DNA from: Loxodes magnus
Taxonomy: Eukaryota; Ciliophora; Karyorelictea; Loxodida; Loxodidae
Assembly (NCBI GenBank): GCA_946699065.1
Contig: CAMPDV010000098.1
Coordinates: 124,001-188,000 of the forward strand
Direction: 5' to 3'
Length of the DNA stretch: 64,000 bases
The translations under genes were made by a program, and so were the position numbers. Positions 13,589 to 62,431 of the stretch are shown here, one piece after another. Below the pieces are notes generated by a model, which had not been told where the DNA came from, did no database searches, and saw only the letters and a list, made by a program, of their open reading frames with translations. Position 1 is the first letter of the stretch. Each line of letters begins with the position of its first letter.

Positions 13589-16500
13589 TCATCTCCAGTT
13601 CTTAACCTTTTCTTCCTCTTCTGGTAGTATGATTTATTCTAAATCTTCTTTTACAGAAAATTCATCGAAAAGAAATTCAGATTTATAGTTATCGAGATTT
13701 GATTCTTTTAAATGGTCTTCAAAGGCGTTCTATTCTTTTTGTCATTAAGTTTAAAAATAGCATTGATTTAGAAAGATTTTTCTTTTCAAAGCAGAAAGGT
13801 TATTTTTAATTTCTTATTAATCATAAGCTTATTATATTTACTAATTAAATTAAACTTTCCTTATATTTGACTCATTAACAGAATCATTATTTAAGTCTTC
13901 TATTATTAGATCATTTTCTTGTATTTTGCTTGCTGTTAAATTATCTGTACTTTAATTTTCCTTTAATTTTCTATTCTATTTTTTAAATTTAATTGGCTCT
14001 ACTTCAATTTCCTATAACCAATACCTATTTTCATTTTATTCACTTTCCCTCTGTAAAAACGCTTTAAGTCTTTTTTTTCAATATAATTTCTAAGATAAAT
14101 TATGGTTAGCTAGTATCACTTTATATAGGTCTATAATATTAATATCATGTATAAGCATTAGTTCTAAATATTTTAAGCAGTTTACTAGATTTATATCTTA
14201 AATAGATTAGAAATATTTTCTAGTATGTTTGTTTTCTATTTTGCTGATATACTAATGTAACGTTTCTTCTACTTCCTTTTATTTTTTAGAAGCATTTTTC
14301 TTCTTTTTGGCTTTCTCCTACTTTTTAATTTCTTCTTTTTCTCAATTTTAAATTATATCATTTAATTGTATTTATCCTTTAAAGCAAGTTAATTTAGAGT
14401 ATATTCTTAAAGAAGCTTTTTACATTTCATACCCAAATTCTATTATTAAATATCTTAGTCATACTATTATGAAATATCCATTAACTAGCACTAAAACAAT
14501 AAATATTAAAAGATCAATAATTTAGTAATGCTAACCTGAGTCAAAGTAAATACCACAGTATAATATCAAAATAGAGATAAACAAGTAGTAAGTTTCTAGT
14601 AGGTTTAGCTAATCTTTAATGTAAGGCTTGCATTTAACTTATAGTAAAACACAAACTGCTAAAATCAAAATTACACATCAAAATTAGAATATAATGGTAG
14701 ATTTTTATAGGAATATGAATATCAATGAAATCATAAACTTTTCATACATTTTAACTATTTCTCAGTAGTAATACTATTCTTTAAACCCTATTATTAAAAA
14801 CCCAAACTAAGACTTTATTTGAATAGTCTTTATTTTTTTTCTATTTCTATATAGATATAAAACTACTATAATTGGAACTAGAACTCCATATATCATAAAT
14901 GAAGGAAGAGCTATTAGTAGTATATACTTAAGATGGTCTCCTTCCCAACATACTATGTTAGTATAAGCATTTAAAACTTCTACGTTTGCAGAGACATTAT
15001 AGCAACTAAAGGCACTAAAAATAGTTAATACCATGCTAGTATTTATCTAAAAGAAGGAAACACTCAGAGAAGTTACAAACAATGATTTACTGAAAAGTTT
15101 TTATTTAAAGAGAGAATAGAGAAATATTAATGAAGCACTTATAATTAAAATGATAATAGGTAGAAGTAAAGTGCCTGTTACTTTTCCATAATATCTTCAT
15201 TCATCTTCAAAATAAATGCAGTCAAAATTGAATATTGTTGATGTAGTTTAAATAAATTATCCATTCAATTAAAAGAAATCCTTAATGACATCTGGCCAAT
15301 CAAATCTAAAGTTTTGAATTAAAACTGAGAACTACATATAATTAGTGAATATTTTAAAGTATACACTATGATACTAGTCCTATTCATATGCTGATTTCAA
15401 TGTAAATCTAACTAAGTAAAAAATGTATAATCCAAATATACATAAAATAATTAAAGCTACAGTGATAGTTGAATTTTAACTCAAGCATTATTAGCATCTA
15501 TTTTTTCCATCTTTTATTCAATCTTATTAGCATACGTCACAAAGAGGACCTGTGTAACCATCTTTACAGCTTCCTTATCACTGTATTCCTTTTCTATAAT
15601 TTTATTTTGCAATCTTATCAGTGATTTAAAAATATTTGGAAATATAACTTTTATTTAAATTCGTACCCAAACATGCTAGTTATTTAGGACATTTATGCAT
15701 TACTTCAGAAGTAAAATTTTCTCTTCAATACCCAGATATTGGCACAACTAAATCTCCACCATAGCATTTTGCTCCTTACATACATTCTCTGCAAGACTTA
15801 TCACTTATATTAAATGAATATTACCCATATAGGCAATTTTAGCATTAAATTGAGTCAATAAGGATTTAACCAGTAAGACATTACTAAATATTAATTTATA
15901 GCACTAATTTACTTTATTCAATATTATCTAAGCCTTAATCAGCTTTTTTAATAGCATCTGATTAAAATTATAGTTAAACTTGACTTCCTGGTTAAGCTTT
16001 TACTATTATATCTCTAATTGTGAATGCTCCTTACTCTGACTATATTCTAGTTTTACCTGATAATTCTGCTTCATCTGAATATATAGAAACTAGTGATTAG
16101 TTATCAGTTTTTACTACTTAACCAAAAATATCAGTTAAATAAATTTAGCTTTCAGGTATTTACATTCCTGGTATTTAATCTAATAGTTTTCTTTCTATTT
16201 TTTCACTTTAATAGCATTAAGTTATTGAATCATGTTAAGAAACATTATCAAGTTTATATGGAAAGGCAGCTAGATGATTCCCATAATATGCCTTATTATG
16301 TTTAAACAAAGAGCATATTTCTTAACTAGTAGTATTAGGAATAAAAATAGGTATAGTATCTTGAATAGAAATGGCACCTCCTTGACTAATTTAACTACTG
16401 ATAGTGTTATTAATAAAAGTATTGTAAGTAATTTGATAACTGCATTATTATTAATCTTCACATATTAGTCTTAAAGCTCCTCCTTTAGTAATATATGGTT

Positions 16501-19500
16501 CAATACCATTTATTCTATTATTATAGAATTAGTTAAAATAGAAACTTATATTAGCATTTACAACATACCCTACTCCTCCTTCTTTTGCAGCAATACAGTT
16601 TTCAAACTTACTATTACTTATCAAGTTATGATTCTATTAGTTATCATTTAGGATAGCAAAGCAAGAACCTGATATTGCTATTTGATTAGAACAATAGCAA
16701 TTTTACATATTCATATAGGAGTTATAAGAATAAATGGCAGATCCATAAGTAAGACTACTAACTCCATTAATAAAAGAAGTATTATTTAAATTTAAAAAGC
16801 TATTTTCAGAATAAACAGCAGTATTTACATATTCCTTTAAAGTACATCATTCCATATTCATTTAGCAGCTTTTTATATAAATTATAGATCCATAAAGTTA
16901 AGAACTTAAGCTTCTAAAGGAACTATTTCAAATCATTAGGTGAGATTAAACAGCAAAAATGCTACCTTATTAAGCGTTCATGTTTTCGAAAGTCACTGAT
17001 GATAAATATAAAGAAGAATTAGCTAGTTAAATTGCACTTCCATACTCTCCTTTACTATCTTTGAATTTAGAATTAAATACTTCTATTTTAGAATCTAAAT
17101 CACCTAAAATATAGACTCCTGAATAAGCACTCTAATTTTCAAATGTTGATCATTCAATTTTAACTGTAGAATCTCAGATCATGATACCTGAAGTCATTTC
17201 AGATGCCTTGTTTGAACCAATTGAAACGTTTTTAAGTTGTAACTAACTTTTATAAATGAATATTAAAGAATTTTATCCAAAATTAGTATTAATAGAAGTA
17301 TTTTAGATTATACTTGCTGCTTCACTCTATGAGGTTCATAAACTTATTATACCTAAAGATAAAGCAGTGTTGTTAAAGATATTTGAGTTTATTATTGTAA
17401 ATTAGCAACTTTAGCCGTATATAAAAGCTCCATCAACTGCTTAATTATTAAAAAAACTAGAGCTTAAGGTTTTAAATTAGCTCCTTTATTAGAAGTAGCC
17501 TACTCCTCCTATTGCTGAAGCAACATTTGAATTACATATAATATATTAGAATGTTAAATTTGAAGCTAAGAGGTAAAAGACAGCTCCTTAACTTGCTTGA
17601 TTCCTAGTGAAGTTAGAGTTTATAATTTGAATATAAGAATTATCTGCTTTTACAATTCCTCCTATGCTTGCATTATTTTAATAACCATAAATTTATTCCA
17701 AAAATACTTAAGATTATTAAAATTAAAACACTCCTCCACTCTAGGCTTTATTTTTGAAAAACTAGCATTTTTTTATTTAAATAAAGTCTTAATTACCTTC
17801 AATTATACTTCCTGAAAAATTAGCTTCGTTCTCTATAAAAATACTCTCAGATAAACTATAATTAGAAAGCTAAGAGTATATAGAAGCTCCTTTATATCCT
17901 TTATTACCTTCAAAGTATGATAAGCTAATCTTTGCTTTAGCATATTTAGCAGAAATCATTAGACCTTATTAAGCCATATTCTTTATTATTGAACTGTTCT
18001 ATAAAACAAAATTTTGGTTGAAAACTTCAATTAAAGATCCAATATCAATAACATTTTATTAAATTAAAGAGTTTTAAATGATTAGGTTTACATTTTTGGT
18101 TTCTATTAATCCGTAGCTTGCATTATTTTATAGGAATGTAGTTTTATTAATAGTTAGTTATTATATTGAAAGTGAGTATATTATAGAAATAGCTTTATTA
18201 TTTCTAAATCAACTTTCTTTTATTATTATATTATCTGATAACTATGTCTCTAAGCAACTTCCTCCATTCCCAGTATTTTCTTCAAACCTTATTAAATATA
18301 ACCTTATATTACTTTCAGTCAGATACATAATCGATCCTTTTTGTGCCTAGTTTTAAATTACTAAGCTTTCTATCAACTTTAAATAACATTAAGACAAGTA
18401 AAAAGCAACTCCATTCTTAGCATTATTATTTCTTATACTACCATTTTCAACTTCAATATTACTTTGTATACCATATGCAAATCCTCCGTACTCTTAAGCT
18501 ATGTTTTCTACAAAAGTACTATCATAGAGAGTTAGATTTGATTGACTTAAGTAAAAGCAACCTCCAAATAAGGCTCTCATTTTTTAAGCTGCTAAACTCT
18601 AAATAACTAAGTTACTTTGCTCTGAATATATTAATCCTCCTTCTCTTTCTGCAATATTATTATGAGATATTATGTCTTTTAATTTAATTTATGATGATAA
18701 GCAATATATAAAAGTTCCTCTTTAAGCTCAGTTTTCTTAAATTAAAATATCTGAAAAATATGCATCAATTTAATTCAAATAAAAGATTCCTTTTTCAAAG
18801 GCTTTATTATTCTTTATTTATATACTAGATAAAGTTATTTTTATATTATCAAGATAGGCTGCACTTCCTTATGCTGCTGAGCTATTTGTAAAAGAGCAGT
18901 TATAGATATTTATAATTTCGTTTTTAAGCATTTATATATATAAATCTCCTCCACTTTAGGTAGCTTTATTATTAGTAAATATAGAGTTTTTCAGATTACT
19001 TATAAGAGACATAGAAGAATACATAAATCCTCCACTATCTTTAACTGCCTCATTTTCTACTGCATTTATGAACTATATCTATTATATTTAAGATTATTAA
19101 AGAAAAATTGCTCCTCCAAAATAGCCATCTGCTTTATTGCCTGAGAATAAGCAATTTTATATTGTAGTGATATTAGAACCAATAATACTGAGTGCTCCTC
19201 CATTTTTTTAGGATTTATTTTTAATGAAAGTATTATTTTAAATTAGCTAAGCACTTGAGTTAAAAAAATAAATACTTCCTCCTTATTCTTCAACTTCATT
19301 GTATTCAAAAATATTATTTTCTATTGTCATTACTTAACTAAAGTAAAGTGATAACGAACCTCCAAAAACTGTCATATGTTCTCTAAATATGCTATAATTT
19401 AGTACTTCCAATTTTGATTCATAAGCATATAAAAAATTTCCACCTCTATTTGCTTTATTTTGATATGCAAATAAATTTGTTATTTACGTAATTTATGAAT

Positions 19501-21612
19501 TGCTAGCATGTAATATTCCACTATTCTAATCTAAAGCCATGTTTTAGATAAAAGAACAATTATAAATAAAAGAAATATTTGTTAAAGAAGTTTAAATAAC
19601 TCCTCCTTAAGAGGCTTTATTATTCAAAAATGAATTATTGACTAATTTATCTAGAGATGAGTTTTAAAAATAAATGCATCCTCCATAATTAGTAGCGCTA
19701 TTCAATTCAAATTTATTATTTACTATATCTTTAATTTAACAGTCTTAAAATTATAAGACTCCTCCAATAAATGCCCAATTTTTTATAAAATTATTATTTT
19801 ATATAAAATCAATTTAAGATTCTATGGCACTTAAAAATCCTCCTGAGTAAGAAGCAATGTTTTATTAAGCACTAATATTTGCTATTGTATTTATATGCGA
19901 ATTTAATAATGATATTGCTCCTAATAATTTTTCAGCTTCATTTTAAATGAAAGAACTGTTAGAAATTACAAAAACTTCTATTTTTATTCCGTAAATAACA
20001 CTTCCATCTTAAGCATTGTTTTGTTGAAAAGTACAGTTAGTAATTAACTTTATATAAGAATTTTCTATGTATATTGTTCCACCATTCTATTAAGCTTAGT
20101 TTTATTCAAAAATATTATTTTAAATAATTTCTATTTAGCTTTCACTAAATGAAAAAACAGCTCCAAACTTAGCTTAATTCTATATAAAACTATTTTTAAT
20201 AAAGATACTCACATTCGATTTTAAAAGATATAGGGATCCTCCTTCTTCTGCAAAGTTATTATTAAATATATTATTTGAAACTTCTTAAATTTTAGAATTC
20301 TCTACATAAAAAGCTCCTCCTTAGCTTAGATAATTTTTTATTTGAGTAACATAATTATCAATAAATATACAGTTTTAAACATTATAAATTATTGAATTTA
20401 CTAGCATTATAGCTCCTCCGTAAAATTGAGCTGCATTCTTTTCAAATGAACAGTTTAAAATACTTTTTACAGTGGAGTTTTCAATATAAAAGCTACCTCC
20501 ATAAATAGAATTTTGCTTATAAAATATAGAATCTTTTATATATTCACATGTTGAATTTAATATTTTGATTAAAGAATCAATTTTAGCTTAGTTTTCAACA
20601 AAAAGGCACCTTTCAATTTATAAACTTGAGTTTTAGTACGAATATATCAATTAATTATTTTATTCAAAGGTAACTTCTATCAAAAAGAATGTTGAATTTT
20701 ATGAAGTCAAAGCAGCATCAGAATTTTGTGTATTGTATTAAAAATAGGATGTTTTCATTCATAATTTAGTATCGATGTAGAAAAAGCAAAATTAGTCAAT
20801 GGCATTATTCTAAAAGATTGAATAACTAACATTTAATTAGCTATTAGAACTATAAATTATATTTTCTTTATTATATTCAAATTAAGTATTATTTAGGATA
20901 AAATGTGAATTATAAGCTCTTATTACACTTCCTCTTTTCGAAGTTTCCATATGATGTATATAAACTTAATTAAATTCTAAATAACTCAAATTTGCACTTA
21001 ATAAGTAAATTATTTTCAAGGGAGATTAAAAATTATTACTGTTTAGAATAAAACATAAGATTCCTATGATGATAATAGATAAGAATTATTATATTCGCTA
21101 CAATCAGAGGTCTCGCAGGTAGATTATAATTACTGGTTAATGCCAGTAATTATAATATTTTTTAGTATAAATGAGTCTTTATTTAAATTTATTTTAATTA
21201 AATGATTTTCAAAAAAAATGGTTCCTATTTAATCTTAATTTTCGCACATTGTATAAACATGCGAATATTAACTACAATTAAAACTTTCTATTTAAATTTT
21301 TTTAGAGCCAGATCATTATTCTCCAGATCTTAAAATTTCGCAATTATCTATACAATTTACACAAGAAAGACATTCCATGGTATGAAAATATGGGGAAATA
21401 AATATGTAATTCTAAATATCCATGTCCAAAAGATTCAGTACTTCTTATATTGAAGTATAAGGAAAATTAATGGTTCCATTCTCCTAATTTAGTCCCAGAT
21501 TTTAAGAAATTTCAGGAGTTGTTATGTAGTAAACTGCATTATGCGACTCGCAACTCAAAAAGAGAAGATAACCGATAATGGATAAAATAATCATCCTAGT
21601 CCTCGAAGGCAT
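13589..21612 (-). CDS. Giant beta-helix/Cys-rich/multi-span membrane protein, copy L, frameshifted
   Basis: This is the inverted paralogue of the gene at 54,404-62,431. The ATG (21,612) opens a signal peptide (MPSRTRMIILSIIGYLLFLS) identical to the other copy. A long ectodomain of Asn-rich, GG-containing beta-helix-like repeats follows, then a Cys-rich segment, about seven membrane spans and a charged tail. The last codon is taken as TGA at 13,591-13,589, after EEEEKVKNWR, aligned with the end of the other copy. One base is missing at about 20,997-21,005 (CTTATTAAG against CTTATTTAAG), which shifts the frame near codon 204. The ectodomain part is 1 nt shorter overall than its partner, consistent with that single lesion. 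It may be a young pseudogene or a sequencing error, because the rest of the reading is undamaged. From 15,537 downward the sequence diverges strongly from the partner while keeping the same fold plan. The family resembles the large ciliate membrane proteins with a pectin-lyase-like repeat ectodomain; the function is unknown. Confidence 0.85.
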
Positions 21613-31375: not shown

Positions 31376-31660
31376 GTTTTTGGACTGCAACTTCTTGCAG
31401 TTTAACGACCCCAACACTTCCTTCATGGGATAACGGGGATATCCTGTTGCTTTCGAAAAGCAGCTGCCAGAGAGCTTCATCGCTATGGGAAACCAGGCTT
31501 CAAGCCCCTACCAGGAGTGGTAATCAAAAAGAAGGTTTCCTTTGCAAAGGTTGACTTTGAACAGGGACGTTCTCAGCACCAGGAAAGGAACTTGTTCCAA
31601 GACATAAAACCAGAAAGTATGATTCAGAAGGTCAATCTCAGCTCCCACCATCTTTTTATC
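31376..31660 (-). repeat. Diverged inverted copy of the array core
   Basis: The GC-rich segment matches, in reverse complement, the core that heads every 2,246-bp unit. Landmarks kept in order include GGGATATCCTGTTG, CATCGCTATG and CTTCAAGCCCCTACCA. A 72-nt stretch in the middle aligns without gaps at roughly three-quarters identity; the ends are more diverged. It stands in opposite orientation about 230 bp before the array. At the two sites where array copy 10 differs from copies 1-9, this copy carries the copy 10 bases. Confidence 0.8.
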
Positions 31661-54403: not shown

Positions 54404-57400
54404 ATGCCTTCGAGGACTAGGATGATTATTTTATCCATTATCGGTTATCTGCTCTTTTTGAGTTGTGAGTCACAGGATGCAGTTTACTTCATAACAACTC
54501 CTTAAATTTCTTAAAATCTGGGACTAAATTATGAGGATGGAACCATTGATTTTCCTTATACTTCAATCTAAGATGTACTGAATCTTTTGGACGTGGATAT
54601 TTAGAATTATATATTTATTTCTCCATATTTGCATACCATGGAATGTCTTTACTGTGCAACTTGCATAGATAATTGCGAAATTTTAAGATCTGGAGAATAA
54701 TGATCTGGCTCTAAATAAATTTAAATAGAAAGTTTTAATTGTAGTTAATATTCGTATATTTATACAATGTGCGAAAATTAAGATTGAATAGGCGCCATTT
54801 TTTTTGAAGATCCTTTAATTAAAATAAATTTAAATAAAGACACATTTATACTAAAAAATATTATAATTACTGGCGTTCACCAGTAATTTCAATTTTCCTG
54901 CTAGACCTCTGATTGTAGAGAATACAATAATTCTTATCTTTTATCATCATAGGAATCTTATGTTTCATTCTAAAATGTAATAATTTTTAATCTCCCTTGA
55001 AAATCATTTACTTATTTAAGAGCAAATTTTAGTTATTTAGAATTTAATGAAGTTTATATACATCATATGGAAACTTCGAAAAGAGGAAGTATAATAAGAG
55101 CATATGATTCAGATGTTATCTTAAATAATACTTAATTTGAATATAATAAAGAAAATATAATTTATAGTTATAATAGCTAATTAAATGTTAGTTATTCAAT
55201 CTTTTATGGTAATACCATTGACTAATTTTGCTTTTTCTACATCAATACTAAATTATGACTGAAAACATCATACTTTTAATACAATACATAAAATTCGGAA
55301 ACTGCTTTGATTTCGTAAAATTCATCATCGTTTTTGATAGAAGTTACCTTTGAATAAAATGATTAATTGATATATTCGTACTAAAACTCAAGTTTATAAA
55401 TTGAAAAATGCTTTTTTGTTGGAAACTACGCTAAAATTGATTCTTTAATCAAAATATTAAATTCAACATGTGAATATATAAAAGATTCTAGATTTTATAA
55501 GCAAGGTTCTATTATCGGAGGTAGCTTTTATATTGAAAACTCCACTGTAAAAAGTATTTTAAACTGTTCATTCGAAAATAACGTAGCTCAATTTAAAGGA
55601 GGAGTTATAATGCTGGTAAATTCAACAATTTATAATGTTTAAAACTGTACATTTATTGATAATTATGTTACTCAAATAAAAAATTATTTAAGTTAAGGAG
55701 GAGCTTTTTACATAGAGAATTCTAAAATTTAAGAAGTTTCAAATAATATATTTTTTAATAACTTTGCAGAAGAAGGAGGATCCCTATATCTTTTAAAATC
55801 AAATGTGAGTATCTTTATTAAAAATAGTTTTATATAGAATTAAGCTAAGTTTGGAGCTGTTTTTTCATTTAGTGAAAGCTAAATAAAAATTATTTAAAAT
55901 AATATTTTTGAATAAAACGAAGCTTAATAGAATGGTGGAACAATATACATAGATAATTCTTATATAAGGTTAATTACTAACTGTACTTTTCTAAAAAACT
56001 ATGCTTAAGATGGAAGTGTTATTTACGGAATAAAAGTAGAAGTTTTTGAAATTTCGAACAGTTCTTTCATTTAAAATGAAGCTGAAAAATCATTAGGAGC
56101 AATATCATTATTAAATTCGCATATAGCTACAATAGCAAATATTAGTGCTTAATAAAACAAAGCTTCTTACTCAGGAGGATTTTTAAGTGCCTGAGAATCT
56201 TAAATTGATTTTATATAAAATAATAATTTTATAAAAAATTGGGCATTTATTGGAGGAGTCTTATAATTTTAAGACTGTTAAATTAAAGATATAGTAAATA
56301 ATAAATTTGAATTGAATAGCGCTACTAATTATGGAGGATGCATTTATTTTTAAAACTCATCTCTAGATTAATTAGTCAATAATTCATTTTTGAATAATAA
56401 AGCCTCTTAAGGAGGAGTTATTTAAGCTTCTTTAACAAATATTTCTTTTATTTATAATTGTTCTTTTATCTAAAACATGGCTTTAGATTAGAATAGTGGA
56501 ATATTTCGTGCTAACAATTCATTAATTAAGTAAATAACAAATTTATATGCATATCAAAATAAAGCAAATAGAGGTGGAAATTTTTTATATGCTTATGAAT
56601 CAAAATTGGAAGTACTAAATTATAGCATATTTAGAGAACATGTGGCAGTTTTTGGAGGTTCGTTATCACTTTACTTTAGTTAAGTAAGAACAATAGAAAA
56701 TAATATTTTTGAATACAATGAAGTTGAAGAATAAGGAGGAAGTATTTATTTTTTTAACTCAAGTGCTTAGCTAATTTAAAATAATACTTTCATTAAAAAT
56801 AAATCCTAAAAAAATGGAGGAGCACTCAGTATTATTGGCTCTAATATCACTACAATATAAAATTGCTTATTCTCAGGCAATAAAGCAGATGGCTATTTTG
56901 GAGGAGCAATTTTTCTTTAATAATCTTAAATATAATAGATATAGTTCATAAATGCAGTAGAAAATGAGGCAGTTAAAGATAGTGGAGGATTTATGTATTC
57001 TTCTATGTCTCTTATAAGTAATCTGAAAAACTCTATATTTACTAATAATAAAGCTACCTAAAGTGGAGGAGATTTATATATATAAATACTTAAAAACGAA
57101 ATTATAAATATCTATAACTGCTCTTTTGCAAATAGCTCAGCAGCATAAGGAAGTGCAGCCTATCTTGATAATATAAAGATAACTTTATCTAGTATATAAA
57201 TAAAGAATAATAAAGCCTTTGAAAAAGGAATCTTTTATTTGAATTAAATTGATGCATATTTTTCAGATATTTTAATTTAAGAAAACTGAGCTTAAAGAGG
57301 AACTTTTATATATTGCTTATCATCATAAATTAAATTAAAAGACATAATATCTCATAATAATATTGCAGAAAGAGAAGGAGGATTAATATATTCAGAGCAA

Positions 57401-60400
57401 AGTAACTTAGTTATTTAGAGTTTAGCAGCTTAAAAAATGAGAGCCATATATGGAGGTTGCTTTTACTTAAGTCAATCAAATCTAACTCTCTAAGATAGTA
57501 CTTTTGTAGAAAACATAGCTTAAGAGTACGGAGGATTTGCATATGGTATACAAAGTAATATTGAAGTTGAAAATGGTAGTATAAGAAATAATAATGCTAA
57601 GAATGGAGTTGCTTTTTACTTGTCTTAATGTTATTTAAAGTTGATAGAAAGCTTAGTAATTTAAAACTAGGCACAAAAAGGATCGATTATGTATCTGACT
57701 GAAAGTAATATAAGGTTATATTTAATAAGGTTTGAAGAAAATACTGGGAATGGAGGAAGTTGCTTAGAGACATAGTTATCAGATAATATAATAATAAAAG
57801 AAAGTTGATTTAGAAATAATAAAGCTATTTCTATAATATACTCACTTTCAATATAATAACTAACTATTAATAAAACTACATTCCTATAAAATAATGCAAG
57901 CTACGGATTAATAGAAACCAAAAATGTAAACCTAATCATTTAAAACTCTTTAATTTAATAAAATGTTATTGATATTGGATCTTTAATTGAAGTTTTCAAC
58001 CAAAATTTTGTTTTATAGAACAGTTCAATAATAAAGAATATGGCTTAATAAGGTCTAATGATTTCTGCTAAATATGCTAAAGCAAAGATTAGCTTATCAT
58101 ACTTTGAAGGTAATAAAGGATATAAAGGAGCTTCTATATACTCTTAGCTTTCTAATTATAGTTTATCTGAGAGTATTTTTATAGAGAACGAAGCTAATTT
58201 TTCAGGAAGTATAATTGAAGGTAATTAAGACTTTATTTAAATAAAAAAATGCTAGTTTTTCAAAAATAAAGCCTAGAGTGGAGGAGTGTTTTAATTTTAA
58301 TAATCTTAAGTATTTTTGGAATAAATTTATGGTTATTAAAATAATGCAAGCATAGGAGGAATTGTAAAAGCAGATAATTCTTATATTCAAATTATAAACT
58401 CTAACTTCACTAGGAATCAAGCAAGTTAAGGAGCTGTCTTTTACCTCTTAGCTTCAAATTTAACATTCTAATATATTATATGTAATTCAAATGTTGCTTC
58501 AGCAATAGGAGGAGTAGGCTACTTCTAATAAAGGAGCTAATTTAAAACCTTAAGCTCTAGTTTTTTTAATAATTAAGCAGTTGATGGAGCTTTTATATAC
58601 GGCTAAAGTTGCTAATTTACAATAATAAACTCAAATATCTTTAACAACACTGCTTTATCTTTAGGTATAATAAGTTTATGAACCTCATAGAGTGAAGCAG
58701 CAAGTATAATCTAAAATACTTCTATTAATACTAATTTTGGATAAAATTCTTTAATATTCATTTATAAAAGTTAGTTACAACTTAAAAACGTTTCAATTGG
58801 TTCAAACAAGGCATCTGAAATGACTTCAGGTATCATGATCTGAGATTCTACAGTTAAAATTGAATGATCAACATTTGAAAATTAGAGTGCTTATTCAGGA
58901 GTCTATATTTTAGGTGATTTAGATTCTAAAATAGAAGTATTTAATTCTAAATTCAAAGATAGTAAAGGAGAGTATGGAAGTGCAATTTAACTAGCTAATT
59001 CTTCTTTATATTTATCATCAGTGACTTTCGAAAACATGAACGCTTAATAAGGTAGCATTTTTGCTGTTTAATCTCACCTAATGATTTGAAATAGTTCCTT
59101 TAGAAGCTTAAGTTCTTAACTTTATGGATCTATAATTTATATAAAAAGCTGCTAAATGAATATGGAATGATGTACTTTAAAGGAATATGTAAATACTGCT
59201 GTTTATTCTGAAAATAGCTTTTTAAATTTAAATAATACTTCTTTTATTAATGGAGTTAGTAGTCTTACTTATGGATCTGCCATTTATTCTTATAACTCCT
59301 ATATGAATATGTAAAATTGCTATTGTTCTAATCAAATAGCAATATCAGGTTCTTGCTTTGCTATCCTAAATGATAACTAATAGAATCATAACTTGATAAG
59401 TAATAGTAAGTTTGAAAACTGTATTGCTGCAAAAGAAGGAGGAGTAGGGTATGTTGTAAATGCTAATATAAGTTTCTATTTTAACTAATTCTATAATAAT
59501 AGAATAAATGGTATTGAACCATATATTACTAAAGGAGGAGCTTTAAGACTAATATGTGAAGATTAATAATAATGCAGTTATCAAATTACTTACAATACTT
59601 TTATTAATAACACTATCAGTAGTTAAATTAGTCAAGGAGGTGCCATTTCTATTCAAGATACTATACCTATTTTTATTCCTAATACTACTAGTTAAGAAAT
59701 ATGCTCTTTGTTTAAACATAATAAGGCATATTATGGGAATCATCTAGCTGCCTTTCCATATAAACTTGATAATGTTTCTTAACATGATTCAATAACTTAA
59801 TGCTATTAAAGTGAAAAAATAGAAAGAAAACTATTAGATTAAATACCAGGAATGTAAATACCTGAAAGCTAAATTTATTTAACTGATATTTTTGGTTAAG
59901 TAGTAAAAACTGATAACTAATCACTAGTTTCTATATATTCAGATGAAGCAGAATTATCAGGTAAAACTAGAATATAGTCAGAGTAAGGAGCATTCACAAT
60001 TAGAGATATAATAGTAAAAGCTTAACCAGGAAGTCAAGTTTAACTATAATTTTAATCAGATGCTATTAAAAAAGCTGATTAAGGCTTAGATAATATTGAA
60101 TAAAGTAAATTAGTGCTATAAATTAATATTTAGTAATGTCTTACTGGTTAAATCCTTATTGACTCAATTTAATGCTAAAATTGCCTATATGGGTAATATT
60201 CATTTAATATAAGTGATAAGTCTTGCAGAGAATGTATGTAAGGAGCAAAATGCTATGGTGGAGATTTAGTTGTGCCAATATCTGGGTATTGAAGAGAAAA
60301 TTTTACTTCTGAAGTAATGCATAAATGTCCTAAATACCTAGCATGTTTGGGTACGAATTTAAATAAAAGTTATATTTCCAAATATTTTTAAATCACTGAT

Positions 60401-62431
60401 AAGATTGCAAAATAAAATTATAGAAAAGGAATACAGTGATAAGGAAGCTGTAAAGATGGTTACACAGGTCCTCTTTGTGATACATGTTAAGAAGGTTGAC
60501 AAAAAAACAATTACAATAATTGTGAAAAATGTAAAAGTACTAAGTCAATAATAATATTGTATTCAATTATAATAGTGATATTTATATGCTTTATAATCTA
60601 TTTAGTGAAATAAACTCTAAAATCAGCTTTTGAATAGGAATAGTATTATGGAGTTTATTTCAAAATTTTTACTAATTACATTTAGTTTTCCAATCTAATT
60701 TTTAACTTCAAATTTGATTGGCCGAATTATTTCGATTATTTTTTTAATATAAATGAATAATATCTTGCTGTTACCCAATCCATATTCAAGTTCGATTGCA
60801 TTTAAATAAGTTAAGACAATAAGTATTATTATGCAGTAATTGGAAATATTTTTCTTCCTTTTTTAATACTTTTAATTTCGTTTTTGACTCTTCTTTTATG
60901 AACTGTAATATCATGGAAGCGTTTTAATAAGTCATTTTTTATTACGGTGTTGAGTGTTAGTTTTTTCTAAATCTTTACTAATTTAATGATGTAGATTTTT
61001 AGTGTCTTCAGCTGTTATTCTATTTCTAATGATTCATCAGTTCTAAATGCATTTACTAGCATTGCATGTTGAAAGGGATTTCATTATAAGTTTATTTTCA
61101 TTTATGCGTTACCAGCACTTTTACTCTATGGCTTTCTAGTTCCCTTTTTAGTTACTTTATATCTATATAAGAATAGAAAAGCAATCAGAACTATCGCAAT
61201 AAAGTCTCAGTTTGGATTTTTAACAATTGGGTACAGTGAGAAATTTTACTTCTGAGAGTTTGTAAAGACATATGAAAAATTTGGAATTAGCTTTGTCTTT
61301 GTTTTACTATAAAAGAATACCATTATGTTTTAATACTGATGCTTAATTATAGTTTTAACTTCAAGTATTTACTTATAGCTTAGATTTAAGCCCTACATCA
61401 ATAGTTAGTTAAATAAACTTGAAATTAGCTATCTAGCAATTTCAAGTTTTATACTATTTATAGGCATTTATTTCAACTCAGGTGAAAGCTACTTAGTTAT
61501 AGACTACTTAGTTTTCCTTTCTTTGATACTAGTAAACTGCTACTTTTTACTAATTTGAATATAGTCGTTAATCATTTAGTTTGGGTATCAAGCTTCTTAT
61601 AAAACTTTAGACATTTACTTACGCTTTTGCCGCTTTAAAAAGCATATTTAATTAGATGAAATTATAAATAAATGAAGTAGCAAAGAGAATGAATAAAAGA
61701 AGGGGAAAGAAAGATTCTTAAAGTTAAGGACTTAAATAAGCAAAATTTTTAAATTGAAGAATTAATCTAAATAAAAGCTAAATGACACCTAGTTTTATGA
61801 CTTAGATCAATACAATAAACGCTCTAAGCTCTTATTCTCTAGGTTTGATGATTAAGAGGCTCCTCAGTTACTAAAGCAAGTAGAATGGTTACTTTTACTT
61901 GATATAAGCTTAATAGAACTTTACTAGCAAACTGTATAAAATTTGACAATGACTTAAAAGGATTATTGAACCAAGCAAGTCAATAAATTTTTCAGCAAGA
62001 TTTAAGATCCTTGAGATAACTTTTCTTTCTTTAGTAGAAATGACGAAAACCGTACTAAAATTATAAAGGTAGAAATGAAATAACCAGAAAATTAAGAATC
62101 AGACATTAATAATTAAAGGAAATAAGAAGCTATTTATTTATAAGATTTAGATGAATCATCAAATAATAATCTATCCCATCAATATGATATAAAATAAATT
62201 TAAAGTAGTCTTAGTATTTTAAAAAGGAATATTCTACAAAACTAATGTAGTTACTAAAAATAATGGAAGGGAATTTAATTTGCATTTTAGGAAACCTTTG
62301 AGGAAAGCAGAAAAAGTCAAAATCTTGAAAATGAAAAATTAGAATTTTTTTATAATGACATTACTCAGCTAGAATAAATATCTTCCTAGCAGATTATGAG
62401 AGAAGAAGAAAAAATTTAGGATGAAAGATGA
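54404..62431 (+). CDS. Giant beta-helix/Cys-rich/multi-span membrane protein, copy R, intact
   Basis: The gene is 8,028 nt, exactly 2,676 codons, open from ATG to TGA when TAA/TAG are Gln and TGA is Trp. By hand I count about 23 internal TGA and about 5 TGG. Order of parts: signal peptide (about residues 1-24); a Cys-containing N-terminal segment; beta-helix-like repeats (about 150-1,880), with recurring patterns such as NCSFENN and GGAFYIENS; a Cys-rich segment (about 1,912-2,043) including ISGYWRENF and GYTGPLCDTC; about seven membrane spans (about 2,047-2,395); and a charged cytoplasmic tail of about 280 residues. The terminal TGA (62,429-62,431) follows REEEKIQDER and aligns with the end of copy L. 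The plan fits the large families of surface or membrane proteins seen in ciliates. A role in adhesion, sensing or surface variation is a guess. It is convergent with copy L across the array only in the sense that both 5' ends point toward the array. Confidence 0.93.

Follow-up and report, generated by a model that had tools for sequence, protein, structure and literature searches.

Gene R, an uninterrupted reading frame in a 64,000-nucleotide stretch of the ciliate Loxodes magnus (positions 124,001 to 188,000 of contig CAMPDV010000098.1, GenBank assembly GCA_946699065.1; here called the window), is very probably a normal karyorelict nuclear gene, read by the context-dependent code of NCBI table 27. 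The code itself is already known. It was described in 2016 for the karyorelict Parduczia sp. (PMC4967479), and the genome paper on Loxodes magnus gives table 27 for this species: UGA is its sole stop codon but means tryptophan (Trp) at a sufficient distance from the poly(A) tail (PMC11441545). Gene R uses this code in the ordinary way, and nothing in the window departs from table 27. The window thus offers a clean, checkable example of one codon meaning both tryptophan and stop. An initial annotation of the window had read TAA and TAG as glutamine (Gln) and TGA as Trp, which agrees with the alignment columns of the R family, with actin, with eRF1, and with the tRNAs. That reading was incomplete in that it left unsaid that UGA is also the stop, a known hallmark of table 27.

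The frame of R covers 8,028 bp (54404 to 62431, plus strand) and consists of an ATG-initiated run of 2,675 codons followed by TGA. Its interior holds 159 TAA, 35 TAG, and 23 TGA codons along with 28 CAA, 7 CAG, and 5 TGG codons. Read with table 11, the 64-kb window contains no open reading frame of 150 amino acids or more. The initial annotation had stressed that R is uninterrupted only if all three standard stop codons are sense. This is true of R but makes a weak argument, because with all three codons sense no frame can stop, and other frames are equally open: over the same stretch, stop-type codons number 217 in frame 0, 244 in frame 1, and 312 in frame 2. The claim of an intact 2,675-residue gene stands on other grounds. 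The frame is supported by the guanine-plus-cytosine (GC) content of its codon positions (0.272, 0.302, and 0.188 at positions 1, 2, and 3), by the Pfam family Beta_helix, and by purifying selection among the paralogue tails. The ratio of nonsynonymous to synonymous differences per site (pN/pS) in the R tail was 0.18 to 0.25 against seven diverged family copies (two of the seven identical). Copy R looks functional. We consider it very improbable that R is a pseudogene in an organism with another code, its in-frame stops being marks of decay: the tail is constrained despite 217 interior stop-type codons, and the same codons occur within actin, eRF1, histone, and kinase genes.

What speaks for decay comes from copy L, the inverted paralogue of R in the window (Table 1). 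Relative to R, L lacks one base at 21002 (R position 55015) and is for this reason not one frame; the gap is either a frameshift or an assembly error at 21002. R and L are 92 to 99% identical across the 5' part (300-column windows) and do not differ at all in the tract that follows, after which identity falls sharply to approximately 57% from about 60481 (44% identity over 628 aligned codons of the tail). The tract without differences is probably the product of recent gene conversion, since a zero-difference tract followed by an abrupt drop in identity is the pattern expected of such an event. Upstream, over 54404 to 57499, pN/pS was 0.74 and changes were spread 50/38/48 over the three codon positions, with no excess at the third; two TGA codons of R in this part face TAA and ATA in L. 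The three codon exchanges between R and L that the initial annotation had listed (TGA/TGG, CAG/TAG, and TGG/TGA) were found exactly where it had placed them, all within the diverged tail that makes up the final quarter of R. The eight interior TGA codons of the R tail stand opposite five TGA, one TGG, one TAT, and one AAT of L; that is, TGA of R does not always face Trp in L. The exchanges had also been offered as an argument against pseudogene stops. The diverged tails do argue against decay, but the pair as a whole gives no such argument, because L is frameshifted and the upstream divergence is near-neutral. These same two features are what favors the pseudogene explanation.

The initial annotation had pointed to conserved proteins, eRF1, and tRNA genes as places where its codon assignments could be checked, and all three bear them out. 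The genome searched comprised 705,730,643 bases in 7,843 contigs. The family alignment had 31 rows, of which 12 nonredundant ones were kept (less than 90% identity). Eight of its columns contain TGA and TGG only, and over all family columns 58% of the residues opposite TGA are Trp (stop-type codons excluded). Actin gave 96 genome matches, from which four diverged genes and two canonical loci were read. Of the eight interior TGA codons in the diverged genes, five fall at conserved tryptophans (Trp 76 in three cases, Trp 83 and Trp 337 in one each), and canonical actin codes all three residues by TGG. The Gln columns of five actin sequences hold a mixture of TAA, TAG, CAA, and CAG. In each of three single actin genes (on contigs C15, C17, and C64), UGA stands at a conserved Trp and again as the final codon.

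Two copies of eRF1 were found on contig C196, and in both the glutamine of GGQ is written with a TAA or TAG codon; a further eRF1-family match on the minus strand (L039) was not counted as a copy. The two genes are closely similar and lie roughly 35 kb apart (19713 and 54613). Both have the motifs GRAQNIKS and FLCENTF; the usual eRF1 motifs are TASNIKS and YxCxxxF. Among 136 scored kinase matches (of 5,592 candidates), a standard stop codon lies inside 135 and TGA inside 91. The conserved Trp of the kinase motif DxWSxG is TGG in seven of the eight loci read and TGA in the remaining one.

These alignments bear on the possibility that Loxodes uses table 6 (UAR, that is, UAA or UAG, as Gln and UGA as stop only), with the interior TGA codons representing short introns, selenocysteine, or sequence errors. 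Loxodes introns are about 17 to 25 bp long (PMC11441545) and easily missed, and earlier single-cell transcriptomes were read as UGA for stop and UAR for Gln (PMC6935857). However, in-frame TGA stands opposite TGG, not opposite cysteine or gaps, in the eight pure family columns and at actin Trp 76, 83, and 337, and it is common inside the kinase domain matches. We rejected selenocysteine, introns, and sequence error as accounts of the interior TGA codons because TGA faces TGG in frame, and we find table 6 scarcely credible.

A tRNA-Gln-like pattern with a UUA or CUA anticodon matched the genome 192 times, compared to 6 times in a reversed control. In 97 of the 100 matches listed, the arm is identical or altered at a single base and the anticodon is always UUA; the other three look chance-level. 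Three fetched UUA-pattern matches were called as tRNAs with anticodon TTA by ARAGORN. Given their likeness to tRNA-Gln, the tRNA(UUA) genes are presumably charged with Gln. Nineteen of those listed form a tandem run with a period of about 275 bp at C214:232607-237600.

The tRNA-Trp(CCA) pattern (up to three mismatches) gave 129 genome matches and none in the control. All 100 listed have CCA; 48 lie on C67 and 50 on C148, in tandem arrays (Table 1), and 2 lie on C110. The anticodon stem is 4 bp in the five array copies fetched, with A27.C43 in both from C67 and U27.C43 in all three from C148. ARAGORN called tRNA-Trp for four of these five copies; the fifth (L087) is an incomplete fragment. Swart et al. 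(eLife) are cited in PMC13092985 and PMC12005148 for a 4-bp-stem tRNA-Trp in Loxodes. The published tRNA, as these two papers describe it, shares with ours the anticodon CCA and the unpaired top pair of the anticodon stem; what differs here is the arrangement in two large tandem arrays, the mismatches A.C (C67) and U.C (C148), and the presence of two 5-bp genes. A contradiction between the 5-bp genes and the published 4-bp stem was ruled out by the 4-bp array copies. The literature search, a titles-level listing with the eLife paper itself set aside, found no paper on tandem tRNA-Trp arrays. A search with the Rfam tRNA model scored 63 of 42,786 candidates, nearly all at one score, and was uninformative on Trp and Gln tRNAs.

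Taken with the published code, the tRNA genes suggest how table 27 may operate in R. UAA, and UAG by wobble, would be decoded by tRNA(UUA). Interior UGA would be decoded by the 4-bp-stem tRNA-Trp, which would outcompete eRF1, and close to the poly(A) tail eRF1 would win, so that UGA terminates.

Gene ends point to TGA as the stop. In all six actin loci read (four diverged and two canonical), TGA directly follows KC[FY], which is the side of the code that the initial annotation had passed over. In R, the TGA at 62429 to 62431 is probably the translation stop. Interior UGA is absent shortly before it: the last one lies at 62012, 139 codons upstream. The histone-fold set had 31 matches, and 30 loci were read. 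An in-frame TGA occurs no more than 53 codons past the match in 29 of the 30, and it falls at a fixed place in the H3 (five loci), H2B (six loci; two places), and H2A (five loci) groups as read.

We compared the last 20 codons with the remaining codons of 28 histone-fold genes (L050, treated below, and the duplicate L060 were dropped). Interior TGA was absent from the last 20 codons (0/560 versus 3/2,939), a count that is not telling alone because TGA makes up only 3 of 2,939 codons elsewhere. TAA was depleted (3/560 versus 67/2939; P = 0.0045), the difference for TAG was not significant (6/560 versus 53/2939; P = 0.28), and CAR (CAA or CAG) was unchanged (12/560 versus 65/2939; P = 1). The genome paper likewise reports UAA and UGA, but not UAG, as depleted before stops (PMC11441545).

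Three H3-like paralogues, L047 (C34), L048 (C146), and L050 (C327), all finish in GEK[HQ]LTD[MV]. Directly after it stands TGA in L048, TAA in L047 (with TGA five codons later), and TAA TAA TAA in L050. L050 looks constrained, because its codon differences from L048 are 36 synonymous and 10 other. One explanation, which we hold to be unlikely though worth stating, is that Loxodes departs from table 27 in part and that UAA still terminates some genes near the transcript end. If true, this would account for the published depletion of UAA and not UAG before stops, and it would place the code of Loxodes midway between that of karyorelicts and that of Condylostoma. The case of L050 would also be explained by the loss of its stop, by an intron, or by an assembly slip in this one gene.

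Another candidate is a code like that of Condylostoma (table 28), with UAA and UAG able to terminate as well. L050, with TAA TAA TAA at its end, L047, with TAA where L048 has TGA, and the scarcity of TAA in the last 20 codons of the histone-fold genes, which matches the published depletion of UAA and not UAG, would fit it. However, TGA stands at or past the conserved end in 6 of 6 actin and 29 of 30 histone-fold loci, and in R itself the final TGA is preceded by TAG at distances of 4 and 14 codons and by TAA at 18 codons. Among the 6 actin and 30 histone-fold loci, UAG was not seen as a terminator, and UAA is suspected in one gene only. Table 28 is therefore improbable for Loxodes. Of the two precedents that the initial annotation had named, the karyorelict code was correct, and the Condylostoma code, with its three stops, was not borne out.

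Several observations weigh against reading R by table 27. Among the family columns listed as having at least two TGA plus other codons, 3 of 12 are not Trp columns, and the remaining three of the eight interior actin TGA codons face Gln, glycine, and phenylalanine codons of canonical actin. The upstream part of R and L (54404 to 57499) diverges near-neutrally, the two C110 tRNA-Trp genes have an ordinary 5-bp anticodon stem, and L050 is without an in-frame TGA within 80 codons past its match.

Usage of UGA differed between gene classes. In R, the ratio of TGA to TGG (23:5) matches the A/(A+G) of the other NNR codons (N, any base; R, purine) (0.80; P = 1), and the 12 nonredundant family tails gave 96:53 against a background of 0.68 (P = 0.41). 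The ratio was 2:20 in the 8 top-scoring kinase loci of the 136 (P = 2e-8 against background), 0:6 in the two eRF1 copies, and 0:4 in each of two canonical actin loci; none of the 43 top actin matches (450 bits or more) contained TGA. Kinase TGA counts by score quarter were 26, 40, 38, and 53. UGA is therefore used at a neutral rate in the R family and avoided in actin, eRF1, and the top-scoring kinases, with conservation as the stand-in for expression and with small gene samples picked by score. In Blastocrithidia, too, reassigned codons are avoided in highly expressed genes (PMC12153298). Together, the UGA usage and the tRNA-Trp arrays suggest competition between the reading of UGA and termination, for which the cell may pay in tRNA dosage. 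The avoidance pattern, the two tRNA-Trp stem mismatches in the arrays, and the H3-like gene ending in TAA TAA TAA may be new. As a separate observation, the stop-type Gln codons of the two canonical actins read are mostly TAG (7 TAG and 2 TAA), gene R prefers TAA, and the 43 top actin matches are near-identical.

The R protein begins with a hydrophobic, signal-like stretch followed by beta-helix repeats; Beta_helix (PF13229) matched nine stretches (whole-protein E value of 1.1e-27). A Cys-rich module follows, with a weak match to DUF7630 (E value of 0.1 or less) in 11 of 12 aligned paralogues. Next comes a hydrophobic helical region that is probably membrane spanning. AlphaFold modeled 513 tail residues with 12 paralogues at a mean predicted local distance difference test score (pLDDT) of 46.9. 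Given the repeats, the Cys-rich module, and the helical region, the product is most likely an adhesin or a receptor of the cell surface. Searching the genome with the R tail gave at least 68 family matches (all of those scored, of 3,684 candidates), a list that is incomplete, since it lacks copy L of the window itself. Several family members (on C98, C195, C280, and C1410) are pairs in minus-plus orientation about 34 to 35 kb apart or near-identical repeats along one contig (e.g., L013 and L014). A protein search with the modeled tail region scored 7,994 candidates, none at an E value of 0.001 or less, and solved structures gave no match to the whole R protein at an E value of 1 or less. Three solved-structure matches to the tail alignment (E values of 0.056 to 0.77) were not accepted as real. 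The literature search for the R protein family found nothing.

Table 1. Positions of gene R, its paralogue L, their compared sites, domains of R, and tRNA-Trp arrays
Feature	Position	Strand	Remarks
Copy R	54404..62431	+	ATG start, 2,675 codons, final TGA; 217 interior TAA/TAG/TGA
Terminal TGA of R	62429..62431	+	Faces TGA of L in protein alignment
Copy L	13589..21612	-	Inverted paralogue of R; probable TGA end 13591-13589
R/L tract without any difference	57494..60336	+	Sharp identity fall from ~60481
Interior TGA of R versus TGG of L	61070..61072 versus 14947-14945	+ / -	Alignment
CAG of R versus TAG of L	61208..61210 versus 14809-14807	+ / -	Alignment
TGG of R versus TGA of L	62264..62266 versus 13744-13742	+ / -	Alignment
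Strongest of nine Beta_helix stretches	55316..55780	+	Residues 305-459; PF13229
Cys-rich module, weak DUF7630	60440..60532	+	Residues 2013-2043; R score under curated cutoff
Hydrophobic helical region	60539..61591	+	Residues 2046-2396; low-confidence model, mean pLDDT 46.9
tRNA-Trp(CCA) tandem array	C67:482301-491371		48 copies among matches listed, ~187-bp period
tRNA-Trp(CCA) tandem array	C148:155442-168961		50 copies among matches listed, mostly ~241-bp period

Between L and R, the window contains a ten-copy tandem array with a 2,246-bp unit (31888 to 52401); over the 300-bp stretch compared, nine copies are 100% identical and the last is 93% identical. The core of the array is GC rich and about 220 bp long, has at least 44 genome matches at 90 to 96%, and ends with a B-box-like GGTTCAAAAAC and then a T run. 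This core resembles a dispersed repeat of the RNA polymerase III type, similar to a short interspersed element. A diverged inverted copy lies at about 31380 to 31655. Rfam gave no matches on the window and only chance-level ones with the array core, and Pfam gave none above the cutoff in six frames of 28.0 to 32.5 kb and 34.0 to 36.5 kb.

R is like other genes read by the karyorelict code (table 27; Parduczia sp. and Loxodes) in that UAA and UAG are Gln and UGA is Trp or stop by context; one H3-like gene outside the window, L050, may differ. The Condylostoma magnum code (table 28) is similar in that all 64 codons can be sense and stopping depends on proximity to the transcript end (PMC4967479), but there UAA, UAG, and UGA terminate, whereas here TGA ends all but one gene whose end was read. 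The Blastocrithidia code likewise gives all three stops a sense meaning, and highly expressed genes contain fewer of its reassigned codons (PMC12153298). There, however, UAR is glutamate and UAA is the stop, whereas in Loxodes UAR is Gln and UGA is the stop.

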